Assembly (NCBI GenBank): GCA_016219235.1
Contig: JACRBO010000448.1
Span: forward strand, 1 to 8,456
Source of the DNA: Chloroflexota bacterium
GTDB taxonomy: Bacteria; Chloroflexota; Anaerolineae; Fen-1058
Length of the DNA stretch: 8,456 bases
Reading direction: 5' to 3'
The position numbers and the translations under genes were made by a program. The notes below the pieces were generated by a model that saw nothing but the letters and a program-made list of their open reading frames with translations, did no database searches and was not told the origin of the DNA. This document shows, piece by piece, positions 3,989-8,441 of this stretch. The first letter of the stretch is position 1. Each line of letters starts with the position of its first letter.

Positions 3989-4017
3989 TGAAACGTTTGA
4001 CGGTGTCGTGCATCTAA
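3989..4017 (+). promoter_or_regulatory. ECF-type promoter candidate upstream of the rhodanese gene (copy 1)
   Basis: TGAAACGTTT-N10-TGCATCTAA. Read as an ECF promoter, the -35 is TGAAAC (3989-3994), the spacer 16 nt and the -10 CATCTAA (4011-4017). A start near 4024 would give a leader of about 28 nt containing the ribosome site at 4039-4043, an ideal layout. The identical bipartite element precedes the ECF sigma gene at 7294-7322. The AAACGTTT core is also a palindrome of the kind bound by LacI-family regulators, so an operator is an alternative. Confidence 0.6.
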
Positions 4018-4038
4018 TGAACCGGATAAGCACACTAC

Positions 4039-4043
4039 AGGAG
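4039..4043 (+). promoter_or_regulatory. Ribosome binding site deciding the rhodanese start
   Basis: AGGAG at 4039-4043 lies 8 nt before the ATG at 4052 but only 2 nt before an in-frame ATG at 4046, so 4052 is the favoured start. Confidence 0.7.
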
Positions 4044-4051
4044 AAATGACC

Positions 4052-4570
4052 ATGTCTAAGAAGAAAGCCAAATCGTCAGCAAGCAGACCGGCGGCTCAGC
4101 CCCCTAAAGCCGCGCCACAAGCGTCGGCCGCCTGGGTGTGGGGTGGGCTGGGTCTGTTGGCCGTGATCGTCATCGCGGTGTTCGTGTCGCAGGGTGCGGG
4201 CGCGGGTGCGGCCAGTGTGCCGACGACAGCCGCACCCGCCGCATCGTCGGCCAGCCTGTCGGCGGAAATCTCGGTGGCCGAAGCGGCCGCCAAACGGCAG
4301 GCGGGGGCGTTCATTCTGGATGTGCGCGAACCGGAGGAATGGAATGAGTATCACATCCCTGGCGCGACGTTGATTTCGCTGGGTGAGTTGGAAGCGCGCG
4401 TCAAAGACGTGCCGCGCGACAAAGAAGTGGTCGTGGTGTGCCGCTCGGGCAATCGCAGCCAGGCGGGCCGCGACATTCTGACGAACGCGGGCTTTACGCA
4501 AGTGACCAGCATGGCAGGCGGGCTGAAGGACTGGGCCGCCGCCAACCTGCCGACTGTGACCGGGCCGTGA
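4052..4570 (+). CDS. Membrane-anchored single-domain rhodanese
   Basis: A 172-residue protein with a lysine-rich N-terminus (MSKKKAKSS), a Pro/Ala-rich stretch, one hydrophobic helix at about 28-46, an Ala/Ser/Thr/Pro linker (48-70) and a rhodanese domain (about 71-168). The active-site loop is CRSGNR with catalytic C130, preceded by LDVREPEEWNEYHIPGA at 89-105, a standard rhodanese signature. Such domains move sulfane sulfur through a cysteine persulfide, or act in thiol redox chemistry. The positive-inside rule places the domain outside the membrane. The gene stands alone, with an ECF-type promoter candidate upstream (3989-4017) and a hairpin terminator downstream (4626-4667). Sharing that element with the sigma gene at 7324 suggests co-regulation. 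The family call is firm; the sulfur donor and acceptor are unknown. Confidence 0.92.
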   Translation: MSKKKAKSSASRPAAQPPKAAPQASAAWVWGGLGLLAVIVIAVFVSQGAGAGAASVPTTAAPAASSASLSAEISVAEAAAKRQAGAFILDVREPEEWNEYHIPGATLISLGELEARVKDVPRDKEVVVVCRSGNRSQAGRDILTNAGFTQVTSMAGGLKDWAAANLPTVTGP

Positions 4571-4625
4571 TCGATCGATCGTTTGATTGACGTTTACAAC
4601 TGCATATTGCCGTTCAATTGTTCAT

Positions 4626-4667
4626 CACCACTCCGATCGCGCCGCTCGCCGATCGGGGTGGTGTTTT
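4626..4667 (+). terminator. Rho-independent terminator after the rhodanese gene
   Basis: A 14-bp stem with one G-U pair forms between 4626-4639 (CACCACTCCGATCG) and 4650-4663 (CGATCGGGGTGGTG) around a 10-nt loop, followed at once by TTTT (4664-4667). There is no matching T-run in the opposite direction. It lies 55 nt past the rhodanese stop and upstream of the next promoter, so it insulates the two units. The T-run is short. Confidence 0.75.
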
Positions 4668-4697
4668 GGTTCACGGCGTGGTTCAATCGGGCTGGGG

Positions 4698-4703
4698 TAT
4701 AAT
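4698..4703 (+). promoter_or_regulatory. Promoter -10 box of the Nudix-thioesterase operon
   Basis: A perfect TATAAT sits between GGGG (4694-4697) and CCCC (4704-4707), so the box is the loop of a 4-bp inverted repeat. No good -35 exists at 16-18 nt upstream. A start near 4710 would give a leader of about 25 nt containing the ribosome site at 4719-4724. The spacing is sensible, but the missing -35 suggests help from an activator. Confidence 0.55.
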
Positions 4704-4718
4704 CCCCAATATCTGCAA

Positions 4719-4724
4719 CGGAGG
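4719..4724 (+). promoter_or_regulatory. Ribosome binding site of the Nudix gene
   Basis: CGGAGG ends 10 nt before the ATG at 4735 and fixes that codon as the start. The open frame extends further upstream, but only through the terminator and the -10 box. Confidence 0.75.
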
Positions 4725-4734
4725 TCGAACGCCT

Positions 4735-5169
4735 ATGCAGCGCGGGATCGATTACATCGGAGTCGGCGTCGGAGCGATTATCGTCAATGCGCGCGGGCGG
4801 GTGTTTATGGCCCAGCGCGGCCCGCTGGCCAAGAACGAGCGCGGGTTGTGGGAATTTCCGGGTGGCGCGGTGGAATATGGCGAGACCTTGATCGCGGCGT
4901 TGAAGCGCGAAATTACCGAGGAATACGGCCTGCAGATGGAAGTGCGCGATCTGCTGGACGTGGTCGATCATATCCTACCGGATGAAGGCCAACATTGGGT
5001 CTCGCCGACGTATGTGTGCGCGCTGATCGGCGGCGAGGCCGAGATTCGCGAACCGGGCAAGTGTTCGGCGTTGGGCTGGTTTGAGCCGGATGACGCGCCT
5101 GACGACCTGACACAGATTTCGCGCCTGAACTTGCAGCACTATCTTGAACGGCTCAACGTGTCGGCGTGA
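4735..5169 (+). CDS. Nudix hydrolase, MutT-like
   Basis: A 144-residue single-domain Nudix hydrolase, a typical length. The Nudix box is complete: G44-x5-E50-x7-R58-E59-I60-x-E62-E63-x-G65-L66, the Mg2+-binding loop-helix that hydrolyses nucleoside diphosphates linked to another moiety. The N-terminal VGVGAIIVNARGRVFMAQRG and the GLWEFPGGAVEYGET context resemble the MutT/NUDT1 and ADP-ribose/dNTP pyrophosphatase groups, but the substrate cannot be assigned. Start and ribosome site are clear. It is first in a plus-strand run; the thioesterase ATG follows its stop after 10 nt, so the two are very likely co-transcribed. Confidence 0.92.
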   Translation: MQRGIDYIGVGVGAIIVNARGRVFMAQRGPLAKNERGLWEFPGGAVEYGETLIAALKREITEEYGLQMEVRDLLDVVDHILPDEGQHWVSPTYVCALIGGEAEIREPGKCSALGWFEPDDAPDDLTQISRLNLQHYLERLNVSA

Positions 5170-5179
5170 GTGCGTGATC

Positions 5180-5596
5180 ATGTCCGAGACCTTTCGATTT
5201 GCCACCTCAATTACGATTCGTTTCCGCGATCTGGATGCCTTTGGTCACGTCAACAACGCCGTGTACTTCACCTACATGGAAATGGCCCGCGTCGAATACT
5301 TCAAACACCTGGGCCTGTTGGCGGATGACTTCCCCTCGCCGTTCTTTATCATCGCCGAAGCGAACTGCCAGTTCAAGGCGCCGATCTTAATGTCGATGAT
5401 GCTGCGCATTCGCGTCGGCGTGAGTCGTCTGGGTAACTCCAGTTTCGATATGGTGTATGAATTTGTCGACGAAGCCGCCGGCCAGGTGCTGGCGCTGGGC
5501 CGCACGGTGCAGGTGATGTTTGATTATGCTGTCCGGCGCACGGTGGCGCTGCCCGATCGCTGGCGGCAGACGCTGACGGACTTCGAGGCGTTATGA
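5180..5596 (+). CDS. Hotdog-fold acyl-CoA thioesterase (4HBT/YbgC-like)
   Basis: A 138-residue hotdog protein of the 4-hydroxybenzoyl-CoA thioesterase family. The signature is RFRDLDAFGHVNNAVYFTYMEMAR at 14-37, written here only to place it: D19 aligns with the catalytic Asp of the family, and GHVNN with the helix-start loop. A second conserved stretch, AEANCQFKAPI (59-69), forms the substrate-side strand. It probably hydrolyses a cytosolic acyl-CoA; which one is unknown. The ATG at 5180 is chosen because it gives the standard short N-terminus; a longer in-frame start would lie inside the Nudix gene. No Shine-Dalgarno is evident, so coupling to Nudix translation 10 nt upstream is likely. Its stop overlaps the next gene as ATGA. 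Confidence 0.9.
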   Translation: MSETFRFATSITIRFRDLDAFGHVNNAVYFTYMEMARVEYFKHLGLLADDFPSPFFIIAEANCQFKAPILMSMMLRIRVGVSRLGNSSFDMVYEFVDEAAGQVLALGRTVQVMFDYAVRRTVALPDRWRQTLTDFEAL

Positions 5597-6633
5597 CTGA
5601 ATCTCTGCCCGACGTAATCGACGCGCAGTTGTGCTATTTGCTGATCATGCCGTGCGACGAGCGGCCGTTGACGGCCTCGCCGCAGCCCTTGCAGCGTCTG
5701 CGCGACGCTCCGTACTTCGAGGCGATCGATGTGGAGGTGCGCATCACCGGCTCGGAGACGATCGTGCACGACGGCGTGTCGATCTCGATCCACTATCAGA
5801 CCTATGACGGCGTGGTGCAAATTGCCGAGTGCTATTTTTCGCTGCCCGATGTGTTAAGCATCAACTCGCTTCAAGCGAAGGCGCGTGTCCAGGCCGCGTT
5901 GCGCTCGCACCTGACCGCCACGCGGCCGCAGCGCGGCGATATGGTGGAAGAATATGCCGTGATGATGCTGTCGGCGGTTGACGGCACGCCCGATGAATTC
6001 ATCGATCGCAACGGCCAGACGCTGGCGCGCTTCATGCGCACCCAGCGCGAAGTCTTCGGCCCGCGTGAAATTGACGACATCTTGATCTCGCGGGTGCGTT
6101 ACTCTGAAGCCGATTTGACCGTGGTCGATTGGGAGGGGGCGGTGATCGTTTCGCCGGAAGGCGATTTCCAATCGGACATTGAACTGTTGAAAATCGGCAA
6201 CTATCAATTGCTGCGCTATCGCTTGCTGGACGAAGCCATCGATCAAAACCTGACGGCCGTCAGCCAGAATCTGCACGAGGGCGCGCGCAGCACGCTGCTC
6301 CCGACGCGCTCGAAGCGTGTGCTGCGCCAGGTGGTCGAGCAGCGGCTGGCACTGACGCTGGGCTTTGAGAAGATCAATCAGAGTTTGCTGCTCATCGGCG
6401 ACTGGTACACGGCCAAACTGTATCGAGTAATCTACGACGAGTTTTATCTGGACGAGTGGGAGGCGGTGATTCAGGCTAAACTGGGAAACCTGGAATCGAT
6501 CATTCAGGTGATTCGCGAAAACTTTGAATTTTCGTGGGCGCGCTTTCTGGAGCTGCTGCAGATTGCGGGCTGGCTGCTGTTGCTGGTAGGTTATTTTGTG
6601 TTGTTCTTTCTCGATTTGAAAGCGTATCAATAA
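5593..6633 (+). CDS. Tail-anchored membrane protein of unknown function
   Basis: A 346-residue protein I cannot name. The N-terminal half (1-215) is a mixed alpha/beta soluble region with YFSLPDVL (81-88), RVRYSEADLTVVDWEGAV (167-184) and SPEGDFQSDIELLKIGNYQL (187-206). The second half (about 207-320) is helical and ends with one hydrophobic helix at about 322-340 followed by DLKAYQ, so it is predicted to be C-terminally anchored with the bulk in the cytoplasm. The order (soluble domain, long helical hairpin-like region, single C-terminal helix) recalls the RMD1/DUF155 family, but I see no diagnostic motif, so this is only a lead. It starts with an ATGA overlap on the thioesterase stop, implying translational coupling. 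The CcmC-like gene follows 33 nt downstream. Confidence 0.85.
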   Translation: MTESLPDVIDAQLCYLLIMPCDERPLTASPQPLQRLRDAPYFEAIDVEVRITGSETIVHDGVSISIHYQTYDGVVQIAECYFSLPDVLSINSLQAKARVQAALRSHLTATRPQRGDMVEEYAVMMLSAVDGTPDEFIDRNGQTLARFMRTQREVFGPREIDDILISRVRYSEADLTVVDWEGAVIVSPEGDFQSDIELLKIGNYQLLRYRLLDEAIDQNLTAVSQNLHEGARSTLLPTRSKRVLRQVVEQRLALTLGFEKINQSLLLIGDWYTAKLYRVIYDEFYLDEWEAVIQAKLGNLESIIQVIRENFEFSWARFLELLQIAGWLLLLVGYFVLFFLDLKAYQ

Positions 6634-6666
6634 CCTGCATGTGGCGCTGATAGAACCGGAGTCGTT

Positions 6667-7296
6667 ATGGGGGCTGTGCTTCGACCAAAATTCATCGTGC
6701 CGTCGCTGGTCATCTTGACAGCGTTGATTGTCATCACGGCCTTTACTTCGCCGCTCGATAAGACCCTGGGTGATCGAGTGCGGATGGTCTACGTTCACGG
6801 GGCCATCATCCGTGTGGTCATGGCGATCCTCGTTATCGCGGGCGGTTTGGGACTGGCGTATCTGGTCACGCGCCGCGCGACGGTGTTTGATTGGGCCAAT
6901 GCCGCCTTCGAGGGCGGCCTGGCGTTGTGGTTTGTTTATCTGGGCACGAGCGTCGTAACCACGCTGCAAGCATGGGGCGGCATCGCGTGGTTTGAGCCGC
7001 GCTGGCTGGTGACGCTGCAAATGACGGGCCTGCTGCCGATTGTGTTGATCGTGGGACTCATCGTCAAGCACTCGCCGATTTCGGCGGCGCTATTTGCCAT
7101 CGTCCCGATCGTGATGATGCTGTTGCTGGCGCAGGCGCGGTTAGTGCTGCATCCATTGGACCCCATTGGCACATCCGGCAGCAGCACGATTCAGCTGGCC
7201 TACGGGGTCATGCTCAGCTGGTGGGTGTTGGTGGGCGTGCAGGTCGTGCGCGGCATGCACGCCTGGGCGCTGACCCGCGCGGCGGCGCACTTGTGA
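6667..7296 (+). CDS. CcmC/CcsA-like integral membrane protein with an eroded WWD motif
   Basis: A 209-residue protein with six predicted membrane helices (about 11-26, 47-67, 82-100, 114-134, 138-157, 178-195), the size and topology of CcmC, which handles haem for cytochrome c maturation. MVYVHG (H44) matches the first external haem-ligand site of CcmC (YIHVP), and LVLHPLDP (H162) matches the second (LHQ...IDP). Between them W103-G-G-I-A-W-F-E-P-R112 aligns with the haem-binding signature WGTWWVWDPR but keeps only the outer residues; the central tryptophans are lost and D is E. It is probably a haem-handling or CcmC-derived protein; no other cytochrome c maturation gene is present in the window. 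GGAG (6658-6661) lies 5 nt before the ATG. The family call is fairly sure, activity is not. Confidence 0.75.
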   Translation: MGAVLRPKFIVPSLVILTALIVITAFTSPLDKTLGDRVRMVYVHGAIIRVVMAILVIAGGLGLAYLVTRRATVFDWANAAFEGGLALWFVYLGTSVVTTLQAWGGIAWFEPRWLVTLQMTGLLPIVLIVGLIVKHSPISAALFAIVPIVMMLLLAQARLVLHPLDPIGTSGSSTIQLAYGVMLSWWVLVGVQVVRGMHAWALTRAAAHL

Positions 7297-7322
7297 AACG
7301 TTTCGGCAGGAAATGCATCTAA
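7294..7322 (+). promoter_or_regulatory. ECF-type promoter candidate in front of the ECF sigma gene (copy 2)
   Basis: TGAAACGTTT-N10-TGCATCTAA, identical at all 19 defined positions to the copy at 3989-4017, with an unrelated spacer. TGAAAC (7294-7299), 16 nt, then CATC (7316-7319). It begins on the stop codon of the CcmC-like gene and ends 1 nt before the sigma gene ATG, so transcription from it would start at or just past that ATG: the message would be leaderless, or translation would begin further in. GAAACGTTTC (7295-7304) is a perfect 10-bp palindrome, so a repressor site is an alternative. Confidence 0.5.
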
Positions 7323-7323
7323 G

Positions 7324-7932
7324 ATGACAGACAACGGAACTTCCGATCGCGAATTGGTCGCCCGCATTCAGGCCGGTGACAAAGCGGCCTGTGCGGCGTG
7401 CATTGAGAAGCATTCGCCCGGCGTGTATCGTCTGGCGCTGCGGTTGATGCAGCACGAAGCCGACGCTGAAGACGTGGTGCAAGAGACTTTTCTCAGCGCC
7501 TTCAAAGCCATCGATGACTTTCAGGGCCGTTCGCAACTGAGCACGTGGTTGTATCGCATCACGTACAACACGGCCATGATGCGTCTGCGCAAGCATCAAC
7601 CGGAAACCGTATCCGTTGAAGAGACCGAAACCGCCGATGACGGTTCGCCGGTGCCGACGCAGTTGTTTGATTGGTGCTGTCTGCCCGAAAGCGATTTCGA
7701 CACCAACGAGACGCGCGCCCGCCTGGAGCAAGCCATCCGCGCTTTGCCCGATAAGCTGCGCGTGGTGTTTGTGCTGCGCGAACTGGAAGGGCTGTCAACG
7801 GAAGAGACCGCGCACGCGCTCGACATCTCGAACGAGACGGTGAAGACTCGCCTGCATCGCGCGCGCCTGTGGCTGCGCGAACGGCTTTCAGCCCATTTTA
7901 CCGAGCTGGCTTATTCACGTGAAGGGCGTTGA
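7324..7932 (+). CDS. ECF (sigma70 family, group 4) RNA polymerase sigma factor
   Basis: A 202-residue ECF sigma factor. Region 2 spans about 28-92, with the core-binding and -10-recognition part DAEDVVQETFLSAFKAID (47-64) and FQGRSQLSTWLYRITYNTA (66-84). Region 4 spans about 133-190, with the helix-turn-helix LSTEETAHALDISNETVKTRLHRAR (157-181) that reads the -35. An acidic linker (92-132) joins them. Four cysteines (C23, C26, C118, C119) are unusual for the class. It would direct RNA polymerase to a small regulon and is presumably held by the ZAS protein encoded 1 nt downstream. ATG 7324 follows AGGA (7308-7311) at a long 12-nt spacing. The promoter candidate at 7294-7322 ends just before the ATG, so the true start could be internal, for example TTG at 7354. 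Family certain, regulon inferred. Confidence 0.95.
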   Translation: MTDNGTSDRELVARIQAGDKAACAACIEKHSPGVYRLALRLMQHEADAEDVVQETFLSAFKAIDDFQGRSQLSTWLYRITYNTAMMRLRKHQPETVSVEETETADDGSPVPTQLFDWCCLPESDFDTNETRARLEQAIRALPDKLRVVFVLRELEGLSTEETAHALDISNETVKTRLHRARLWLRERLSAHFTELAYSREGR

Positions 7933-7933
7933 C

Positions 7934-8185
7934 ATGCCAACCGAAAATTGCCGGCACCTATTGCACGCCCTATCGGACTATCTCGATGGCGAGGCCACGC
8001 AGGAATTGTGCGCGGAGATCGAGCGGCATCTGGCGGAGTGCGACGACTGTACCGCGCTGGTCGATACGGCCCGCATGACGGTTGGCCTGTATCATCACTT
8101 GCCGCAGCCGATCATGTCGGCTGATGCCAAAGCACGTTTGTTCAAGACGCTGGATTTGACCGAGTACTTAAAGGCCGACCCGTGA
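7934..8185 (+). CDS. Zinc-binding anti-sigma factor (ZAS, zf-HC2), soluble
   Basis: An 83-residue protein with the ZAS signature H32-x3-C36-x2-C39 in a small helical domain (about 5-50), with C6 and C26 as candidate fourth ligands. Such domains clamp ECF sigma factors and in RsrA-type members release them when thiols are oxidised. No membrane helix follows; the protein ends about 33 residues after the domain, so it is cytoplasmic, unlike many anti-sigmas that signal across the membrane. The start at ATG 7934 (MPTENCRHLL) is 1 nt after the sigma stop and is served by GAAGGG (7921-7926); a GTG at 7919 would add five residues and is less likely. Partner: the sigma factor encoded immediately upstream. 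Confidence 0.9.
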   Translation: MPTENCRHLLHALSDYLDGEATQELCAEIERHLAECDDCTALVDTARMTVGLYHHLPQPIMSADAKARLFKTLDLTEYLKADP

Positions 8186-8355
8186 AGTCGAAGACCGGAT
8201 CTACCAAAACCAAACCAACCGGCAAGCCTTGCCGTGCGCCCAAGTACGGCGGCCGCTGCGCGAAGTGCGGGCGCGCCAGGTTGGACTACAACGGGCTGTT
8301 GCAATTAGTCTGTCCAGGCTGCGGCTACGTGGCCGAGAGCGGCGGCTTTAGTTGA
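8182..8355 (+). CDS. Small zinc-ribbon protein, GTG start
   Basis: A 57-residue protein starting at GTG 8182, overlapping the anti-sigma stop as GTGA. A basic Lys/Thr-rich N-terminus (K2, K4, K9, K11, K15) leads into a zinc ribbon with two knuckles, C26-x2-C29 and C44-x2-C47, separated by 14 residues; CPGCGYVAE (44-52) is the typical second knuckle of RPB9/TFIIB-like ribbons. An extra C17 is present. There is no membrane segment. A basic tail plus ribbon suggests nucleic-acid or protein binding, perhaps to polymerase or the sigma/anti-sigma pair, but nothing shows a specific role. Reading frame, overlap and cysteine spacing make it real despite its size. It is the last gene before the terminator at 8410. 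Confidence 0.8.
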   Translation: MKSKTGSTKTKPTGKPCRAPKYGGRCAKCGRARLDYNGLLQLVCPGCGYVAESGGFS

Positions 8356-8388
8356 TAGGTTGATTCGTTCGGGGCGTGACCTCGAAGT

Positions 8389-8416
8389 GATACGTAATGC
8401 ATACTGCGTAATCCGT
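8389..8416. repeat. Degenerate heptamer repeat, second locus
   Basis: Four 7-bp units, GATACGT, AATGCAT, ACTGCGT, AATCCGT, in one phase. The second is identical to a unit at 385-391 and the third and fourth are one mismatch from AATGCGT at 406-412. The last unit forms the left foot of the terminator stem. It is degenerate but in phase, and lies between genes like the first locus. Confidence 0.6.
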
Positions 8417-8441
8417 GAGCCAACTGGCTTGCGGATTTTTT
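8410..8441 (+). terminator. Rho-independent terminator of the sigma operon
   Basis: AATCCGTGAGCC (8410-8421) pairs over 12 bp with GGCTTGCGGATT (8426-8437), with two G-U pairs, around the tetraloop AACT, and runs into six T (8436-8441). It stands 54 nt after the zinc-ribbon stop. Nothing further is seen from 8442 to 8456. Confidence 0.9.

Follow-up and report, generated by a model that had tools for sequence, protein, structure and literature searches.

A candidate promoter element shared by a rhodanese gene and an ECF sigma factor gene suggests a thiol and sulfur regulon in Chloroflexota

About 72% of the extracytoplasmic function (ECF) sigma factors of Chloroflexi have a partner with an anti-sigma domain, and zinc is bound by about 72% of the anti-sigma domains that are soluble (PMC7406223). 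RsrA, the anti-sigma factor of sigmaR in Streptomyces, binds zinc through a CHCC motif, and oxidation to a disulfide expels the zinc and frees the sigma factor; the extra cysteine that makes the motif CHCC is needed for this release, which an HHCC version did not give, and a contrary report for RslA is cited in the same source (PMC4960319). At the gene level, an autoregulated promoter upstream of sigR yields a longer, unstable SigR', sigR has a GTC start and rsrA has a promoter inside sigR (PMC5472188). Here we analyzed contig JACRBO010000448.1 of a Chloroflexota bacterium (assembly GCA_016219235.1), the whole 8,456 nucleotides of which we call the window, and in it a bipartite element, TGAAACGTTT-N10-TGCATCTAA, that stands ahead of a rhodanese gene and again ahead of an ECF sigma gene with an adjacent anti-sigma gene. 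Self-recognition is the usual pattern of ECF factors, and a promoter of its own type on an ECF gene is usual, although not universal.

We conclude, with a probability of about 0.83, that the element serves as a promoter for RNA polymerase bound to the sigma factor encoded at 7324 or to its Chloroflexota orthologs, and that it would define a thiol/sulfur regulon. The two copies lie on the forward strand at 3989–4017 and 7294–7322, are identical at all 19 fixed positions and have unrelated spacers, exactly as the initial annotation of this DNA had described them, and each is upstream of a gene, as it had also said. No other place in the window matched the bipartite string, even with up to three mismatches, and 200 dinucleotide-preserving shuffles of the window gave no match. 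The –10 part, CATCTAA, ends 28 nt ahead of the ATG at 4046 in the rhodanese gene (34 nt ahead of the ATG at 4052) and 1 nt ahead of the sigma ATG at 7324.

For comparison, we scanned 298 genomes of the class to which a relative belongs. The part conserved there is not the exact 19-base string but G-N-(A/C)-A-C-N-TTT with CATCTAA 12 nt on, the commonest form being TGTAACCTTT...GCATCTAA. A strict form of the pattern, GNMACNTTT-N12-CATCTAA, was chosen after viewing the relatives' sequences and the result of a looser pattern and is partly shaped on them; it gave 78 matches in 53 of the 298 genomes, and the reversed pattern 9 in 8 genomes. Positions left free in the search were conserved too: among 95 distinct strict sites in all loci examined, T preceded the first G in 74 and followed it in 73, and G stood directly before CATCTAA in 65. 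We then varied the gap from 8 to 16 in 60 genomes, 26 reached via sigma loci and 34 belonging to the 53 chosen for strict sites; these 34 were left out of the count because their inclusion would be circular. In the 26 sigma-locus genomes, N12 accounted for 22 of the 31 matches and the eight other lengths together for 9; without seven genomes picked partly for their upstream sequence, N12 still made up 17 of 26. Viral contigs contained 30 matches to the pattern, none of them a relative.

The element goes together with this particular sigma factor. In a sigma alignment search at E 1e-45, 125 of the 298 genomes contained the factor: 50 of the 53 with the element and 75 of the 245 without it (Fisher p = 9e-19), while only two of the eight genomes holding the control pattern did so. 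Within 150 nt of codon 18, a relaxed form of the element was found at 30 of 83 sigma genes and two control patterns at none. The 83 include one gene cut by a contig end (L072) as well as the window and two loci (L141, L152) whose element was already known, and dropping these last three left 27 of 80. Scored with a weight matrix derived from 86 non-sigma sites, 26 of the 83 sigma upstream regions exceeded the shuffles' 99th percentile (23 of 80 when the three known ones are dropped) and 16 of the 83 outscored the best shuffle. The sigma genes carrying the element have sequences 42–100% identical, and in the window it is element 2 that represents the putative promoter of the factor's own type on the sigma gene. 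Both window sites are kept in a close relative with a 91% identical sigma factor (G080): at its rhodanese gene (L140), 27 of 28 bases are identical and the leader is conserved, and at its sigma gene (L141), the general pattern is intact in every base, the differences being one free –35 base and 4 of the 12 spacer bases. The scan of relatives that had been proposed as a check thus agreed with the prediction in enrichment over the reversed control, preferred spacing, co-occurrence with the sigma factor, the position ahead of genes and the presence of both sites in a close relative.

The genes 3' of the 95 distinct sites were grouped by similarity and Pfam. Their functional classes were named after viewing the sequences, and the labels TrxR-like, SQR-like and FmdB-like are readings of the sequences, with Pfam supporting the main domains. 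Of the 78 strict sites from the 298-genome search, 41 head genes of thiol or sulfur families: PDO-like proteins with thioredoxin or glutaredoxin domains (11), rhodaneses (10), FAD/NAD disulfide reductases of the TrxR, SQR or a related type (6), YgaP-like membrane proteins (5), DUF302 (3), OsmC (3), glutaredoxin (2) and a TlpA-like protein (1). Sigma genes (5), anti-sigma genes (3), a zinc ribbon as in the window (2) and FmdB-like (2), Fur-like (2) and ferredoxin-like (2) proteins make up further targets. The 10 rhodanese-headed sites compare with 0.11 expected (p = 2.4e-17), the expectation coming from the density in 15 genomes (142 domains) that were partly picked for such sites; counts of 11 of 34 for rhodanese and 5 of 40 for YgaP came from genomes partly picked in the same way and were set aside in favor of 10 of 78. 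Judged by the positions of the element rather than by expression, the targets would form a thiol/sulfur regulon. The regulon of sigma factor and membrane rhodanese proposed in the initial annotation is thus supported comparatively, and its predicted extent is wider than had been guessed. One genome (G002, locus L157) has three elements within about 2 kb of the minus strand (8286, 7271 and 6204), a compact regulon island in which the elements stand at the sigma gene, at a PDO-like gene and at one further gene.

The position of the start site bears on what element 2 produces. At the 76 strict sites where no ATG adjoins the –10, a pyrimidine–purine (YR) step was concentrated at position 6 after CATCTAA (46 of 76 against a background of 23%, p = 2.6e-12), and we infer that it marks the start of transcription. 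By analogy, the predicted start of element 2 falls inside the open reading frame (ORF) of the sigma factor, and the feedback transcript may therefore lack the sigma start codon. The layout recurs: counting from the end of the –10, the first ATG is found at –1 to +5 in 20 of the 30 element-carrying sigma genes. In some species, the feedback transcript may be leaderless, or it may yield a shorter sigma factor or serve the anti-sigma factor. The claim that the sigma factor controls itself accordingly stands in one part, the element on the sigma gene being recurrent in relatives, and is weakened in the other by a start that may miss the sigma start codon.

The alternative that survives best, possible though less probable than not, is that element 2 is an ECF promoter from which no full-length sigma factor is made: it would serve the anti-sigma gene alone (with the zinc ribbon) or a sigma factor from an internal start, and full-length sigma factor would come from upstream read-through. 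The YR signal of the target genes, which puts the sigma start at 7329, and the crowding of first ATGs against the –10 speak for it. The anti-sigma gene has a Shine–Dalgarno-like stretch of its own (AAGGG, 7922–7926), the element heads the anti-sigma gene at 3 of the 78 sites, and in Streptomyces the promoter inside sigR goes with an excess of RsrA (PMC5472188). The start spacing, however, derives from other genes, and leaderless starts at a distance of 4–7 are possible in some relatives. Moreover, an additional in-frame start lies up to 40 nt farther upstream in five of the 20 genes (L002, L043, L050, L063 and L078), no conserved in-frame internal start codon was found in the relatives' sigma genes, and the alternative presumes read-through from the upstream ORF. 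A bolder version, which we regard as unlikely, is a circuit that limits itself by promoter placement: a sulfane-sulfur/disulfide ECF/CHCC switch common in Chloroflexota, its feedback promoter fused to the sigma start codon, in which activation would give more anti-sigma factor (or short sigma factor) and no full-length sigma factor.

Several observations weigh against the conclusion that the element is the promoter of this sigma factor, the predicted placement of the start of element 2 inside the sigma ORF being one. When the pattern was loosened to GTAAC-N16-CATCTAA, with one mismatch allowed and the TTT omitted, there was no enrichment in 26 genomes (198 matches against 469 for the reversed control, 169 of the latter from one genome), a result that indicates that the TTT part matters and that led to its addition to the strict form. 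In addition, 21 of the 78 strict sites head nothing assignable, three genomes with the element (G107, G214 and G273) lack the sigma factor at E 1e-45 and 75 of the 125 sigma-bearing genomes lack a strict match. Among the 83 sigma genes, 53 have no relaxed promoter, including close orthologs at L003 and L005, where strict sites stand at other genes. A first look found 10–63 ECF-like candidates per genome among the genomes listed and, with so many, a paralog could read the site. Another ECF factor of the same genomes, with the neighboring sigma gene as its target, would fit the three genomes without a close relative of the window's factor as well as the 53 genes without a site. We nevertheless consider it improbable, given the strong co-occurrence of the element with this sigma family and its repeated placement on this factor's own gene over the range of identities given above, both of which favor the factor encoded at 7324 as the reader.

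It is very improbable that the element is an operator of a transcription factor and no promoter: AAACGTTT lies within both window copies and is palindromic, as in LacI-type operators, but most relatives have GTAACCTTT or GTCACTTTT forms, which are not palindromic and have the second part 12 nt off, and a start-site signal lies at a fixed distance 3' of the element. The LacI-type palindrome was rejected for this lack of symmetry in most of the relatives' sites. Chance or an inherited duplication of a short string would account for just two copies in the window but has a negligible probability in view of the unrelated spacers, the 0 of 200 shuffles and, decisively, the 78 forward against 9 reversed matches across 298 genomes.

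The proteins fit the reading of the element as an ECF promoter. The sigma factor scores 129.3 bits against TIGR02937 (cut-off 42.9), which assigns it to the ECF (group 4 sigma-70) factors, and the gene of a zf-HC2 protein adjoins it at 7934, as expected of an ECF factor. Its best relatives are Chloroflexota records, many of them Anaerolineae, Anaerolineales or Thermoflexales. The nearest solved structure is SigW (5wuq, 9e-40), with a sigma factor (8z6g), a sigma-H and a sigma-E next in rank; the SigH structure 5zx2 scores 1.2e-22, and sigmaR is represented among solved structures only by fragments. Membership of the SigW family was rejected, with 145.1 of the required 209 bits for NF007223 and 134.1 of 243.1 for TIGR02948. 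The ECF layout that had been claimed for the promoter is supported, while the factor falls outside the SigW family, for all that SigW is its closest relative among solved structures. Structure prediction for the sigma factor gave only a moderate model (predicted local distance difference test 73.6, predicted template modeling score 0.45, with residues 92–121, which include C118 and C119, below 50) and was not used. Cysteines 23, 26, 118 and 119 (ACAxCIE and DWCCLPE) are invariant in 32 of 32 aligned sequences of the close sigma subfamily; the full set of four occurs in 19 of 86 loci, the CC pair alone remaining in some more distant relatives. The sigma factor may itself carry a metal or redox site.

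The anti-sigma protein has 83 residues, with Cys6, His32, Cys36 and Cys39 (HLAECDDC), and Cys6 and His32 are 26 apart. It thus shows the features of a CHCC redox-type zinc anti-sigma factor, HisXXXCysXXCys with a cysteine 23–26 residues before and no extra domain. By a crude rule, an ORF with HxxxCxxC adjoins 64 of 86 sigma genes; among 95 partly redundant matches to related anti-sigma ORFs in the loci, 90 have HxxxCxxC and 88 of these 90 have a cysteine 23–27 residues before the histidine. The protein matched no solved structure. Membership of the sigmaR/RsrA family proper was rejected: TIGR03988 gave 32.8 bits (5.4e-8) against a cut-off of 62.5, and GNMACNTTT-N12-CATCTAA is not the sigmaR-type promoter, GGAAT...GTT (GGAAT-N18-GTT).

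Together, the components suggest a mechanism. The –35, G(T/A/C)(A/C)AC-N-TTT, and the –10, CATCTAA, which comparison places 12 nt apart, would be read by the holoenzyme of the sigma factor. The soluble CHCC zinc anti-sigma factor, paired with it in the genome, would hold it until the zinc is driven out by thiol oxidation, or possibly by sulfane sulfur, and the sigma factor is released, as in RsrA. From that chemistry, a chain from thiol oxidant through sigma release to disulfide and sulfur enzymes appears likely; sulfane sulfur is considered as a signal because the targets include rhodanese, SQR-like and YgaP-like proteins. The freed factor would turn on genes for disulfide and sulfur metabolism, in the window that of the membrane rhodanese and in relatives the PDO-like, rhodanese, glutaredoxin, TrxR/SQR-like, YgaP-like, DUF302 and OsmC genes that the element heads. 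On the sigma/anti-sigma operon, it would close a feedback loop, which could be of either sign given a –10 that abuts the sigma start codon.

The coordinates of the features are given in Table 1. The rhodanese has a Lys-rich N terminus, a single hydrophobic segment and a CRSGNR loop by sequence inspection and, since the Lys-rich N terminus precedes the single membrane segment, the arrangement suggests that the rhodanese domain faces outside the cytoplasm. In two relatives (L125 and L167), the element of the zinc-ribbon gene sits 11–12 nt ahead of its ATG. The ORF ending at element 2 had no match in Pfam or NCBIfam, resembles CcmC-type heme-export proteins by eye (MVYVHG) and also stands ahead of the sigma gene in G080. 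Upstream of it, ORF 5593–6633 encodes 346 residues with a C-terminal membrane segment, is RMD1/DUF155-like by eye and had no Pfam match. The hairpin search of the window gave eight, with 5.4 expected from shuffles, and the two terminator-like hairpins listed are thus weak candidates. Noncoding stretches at 365–500 and 8385–8415 contain short, degenerate repeats of the type aatgcacaatgcac and ccaatttaccaattt.

Table 1. Features of the window, with positions counted from its first nucleotide
Feature	Position	Strand	Details
ECF promoter element 1 (rhodanese), predicted	3989..4017	+	–35 core GAAACGTTT 3990–3998; –10 CATCTAA 4011–4017
Predicted transcription start, element 1	C4023/G4024 (4024)	+	6 nt after –10, by analogy with the YR step of relatives
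Membrane-anchored rhodanese	4046..4570	+	Pfam Rhodanese 4.8e-20; start ATG 4046 or 4052
Terminator-like hairpin 3' of rhodanese gene	4639..4664	+	weak support
Membrane protein ORF	6667..7296	+	its stop codon, TGA, forms bases 1–3 of element 2
ECF promoter element 2 (sigma gene), predicted	7294..7322	+	–35 core GAAACGTTT 7295–7303; –10 CATCTAA 7316–7322
ECF sigma factor	7324..7932	+	Pfam Sigma70_r2 3.8e-20, Sigma70_r4_2 2.9e-16; NCBIfam sigma70-ECF
Predicted transcription start, element 2	C7328/A7329 (7329)	+	inside sigma ORF, 5 nt after A of ATG 7324
Soluble zinc-binding anti-sigma factor, CHCC type	7934..8185	+	Pfam zf-HC2 1.7e-9
Small zinc-ribbon protein	8182..8355	+	own copy of the element present in relatives (L125, L167)
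Terminator-like hairpin 3' of sigma/anti-sigma/zinc-ribbon unit	8410..8437	+	weak support

Searches of an open-licence collection of papers brought up no description of this promoter, of persulfide or rhodanese ECF regulons or of such Chloroflexota factors, although a published ECF group and promoter logo may exist. For Anaerolineae and related bacteria, which are known here chiefly through metagenome assemblies, the analysis provides from sequence alone a promoter code, a sigma/anti-sigma pair and a predicted thiol/sulfur regulon. Rhodanese, YgaP-like, DUF302 and OsmC proteins of unclear role could be placed in one stress response, and the layout with the promoter on the start codon makes a specific claim on how such a circuit could limit itself.

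Among known systems, the sulfane-sulfur regulons of CstR, FisR and BigR/SqrR overlap the target set, with rhodanese, SQR-like, metallo-beta-lactamase/rhodanese and YgaP-like targets; unlike the system described here, they use repressors or enhancer-binding activators and not an ECF sigma factor. SigW of Bacillus subtilis is the nearest solved structure, and its –35, TGAAAC, resembles that of the window. Its –10, in contrast, is CGTA where the window has CATCTAA, and the window factor missed the NCBIfam SigW models. We found no SigW promoter letters in PMC6713349. The window's anti-sigma factor is a small CHCC protein, whereas RsiW is named as an HHCC protein in PMC4960319. SigmaF/NrsF of Caulobacter shares the –35 GTAACC with the relatives' consensus and responds to thiol-reactive heavy metals, but its site is GTAACC-N16-CGAA and NrsF holds sigmaF at the inner membrane (PMC3511200).

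With sigmaR/RsrA of Streptomyces (SigH/RshA in mycobacteria and corynebacteria), the system predicted for the window has in common an ECF sigma factor with a soluble CHCC zinc anti-sigma factor of a single domain encoded directly after it, a thiol-redox regulon, autoregulation and unusual start arrangements at the sigma gene (PMC4960319, PMC5472188). It differs in the scores, SigW (9e-40) ranking above SigH (1.2e-22) for the sigma factor and the anti-sigma factor falling below the RsrA cut-off, and in targets rich in rhodanese, YgaP-like, OsmC and DUF302 proteins. The layout of the window is unlike all three Streptomyces arrangements of the sigR operon: the element for autoregulation is placed directly against the sigma ATG, while sigRp2 is located upstream and gives a longer isoform (PMC5472188). 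The predicted system is thus not of the sigmaR/RsrA family by score; by anatomy, it is a sigmaR/RsrA-like redox switch with a promoter code and a regulon of its own.

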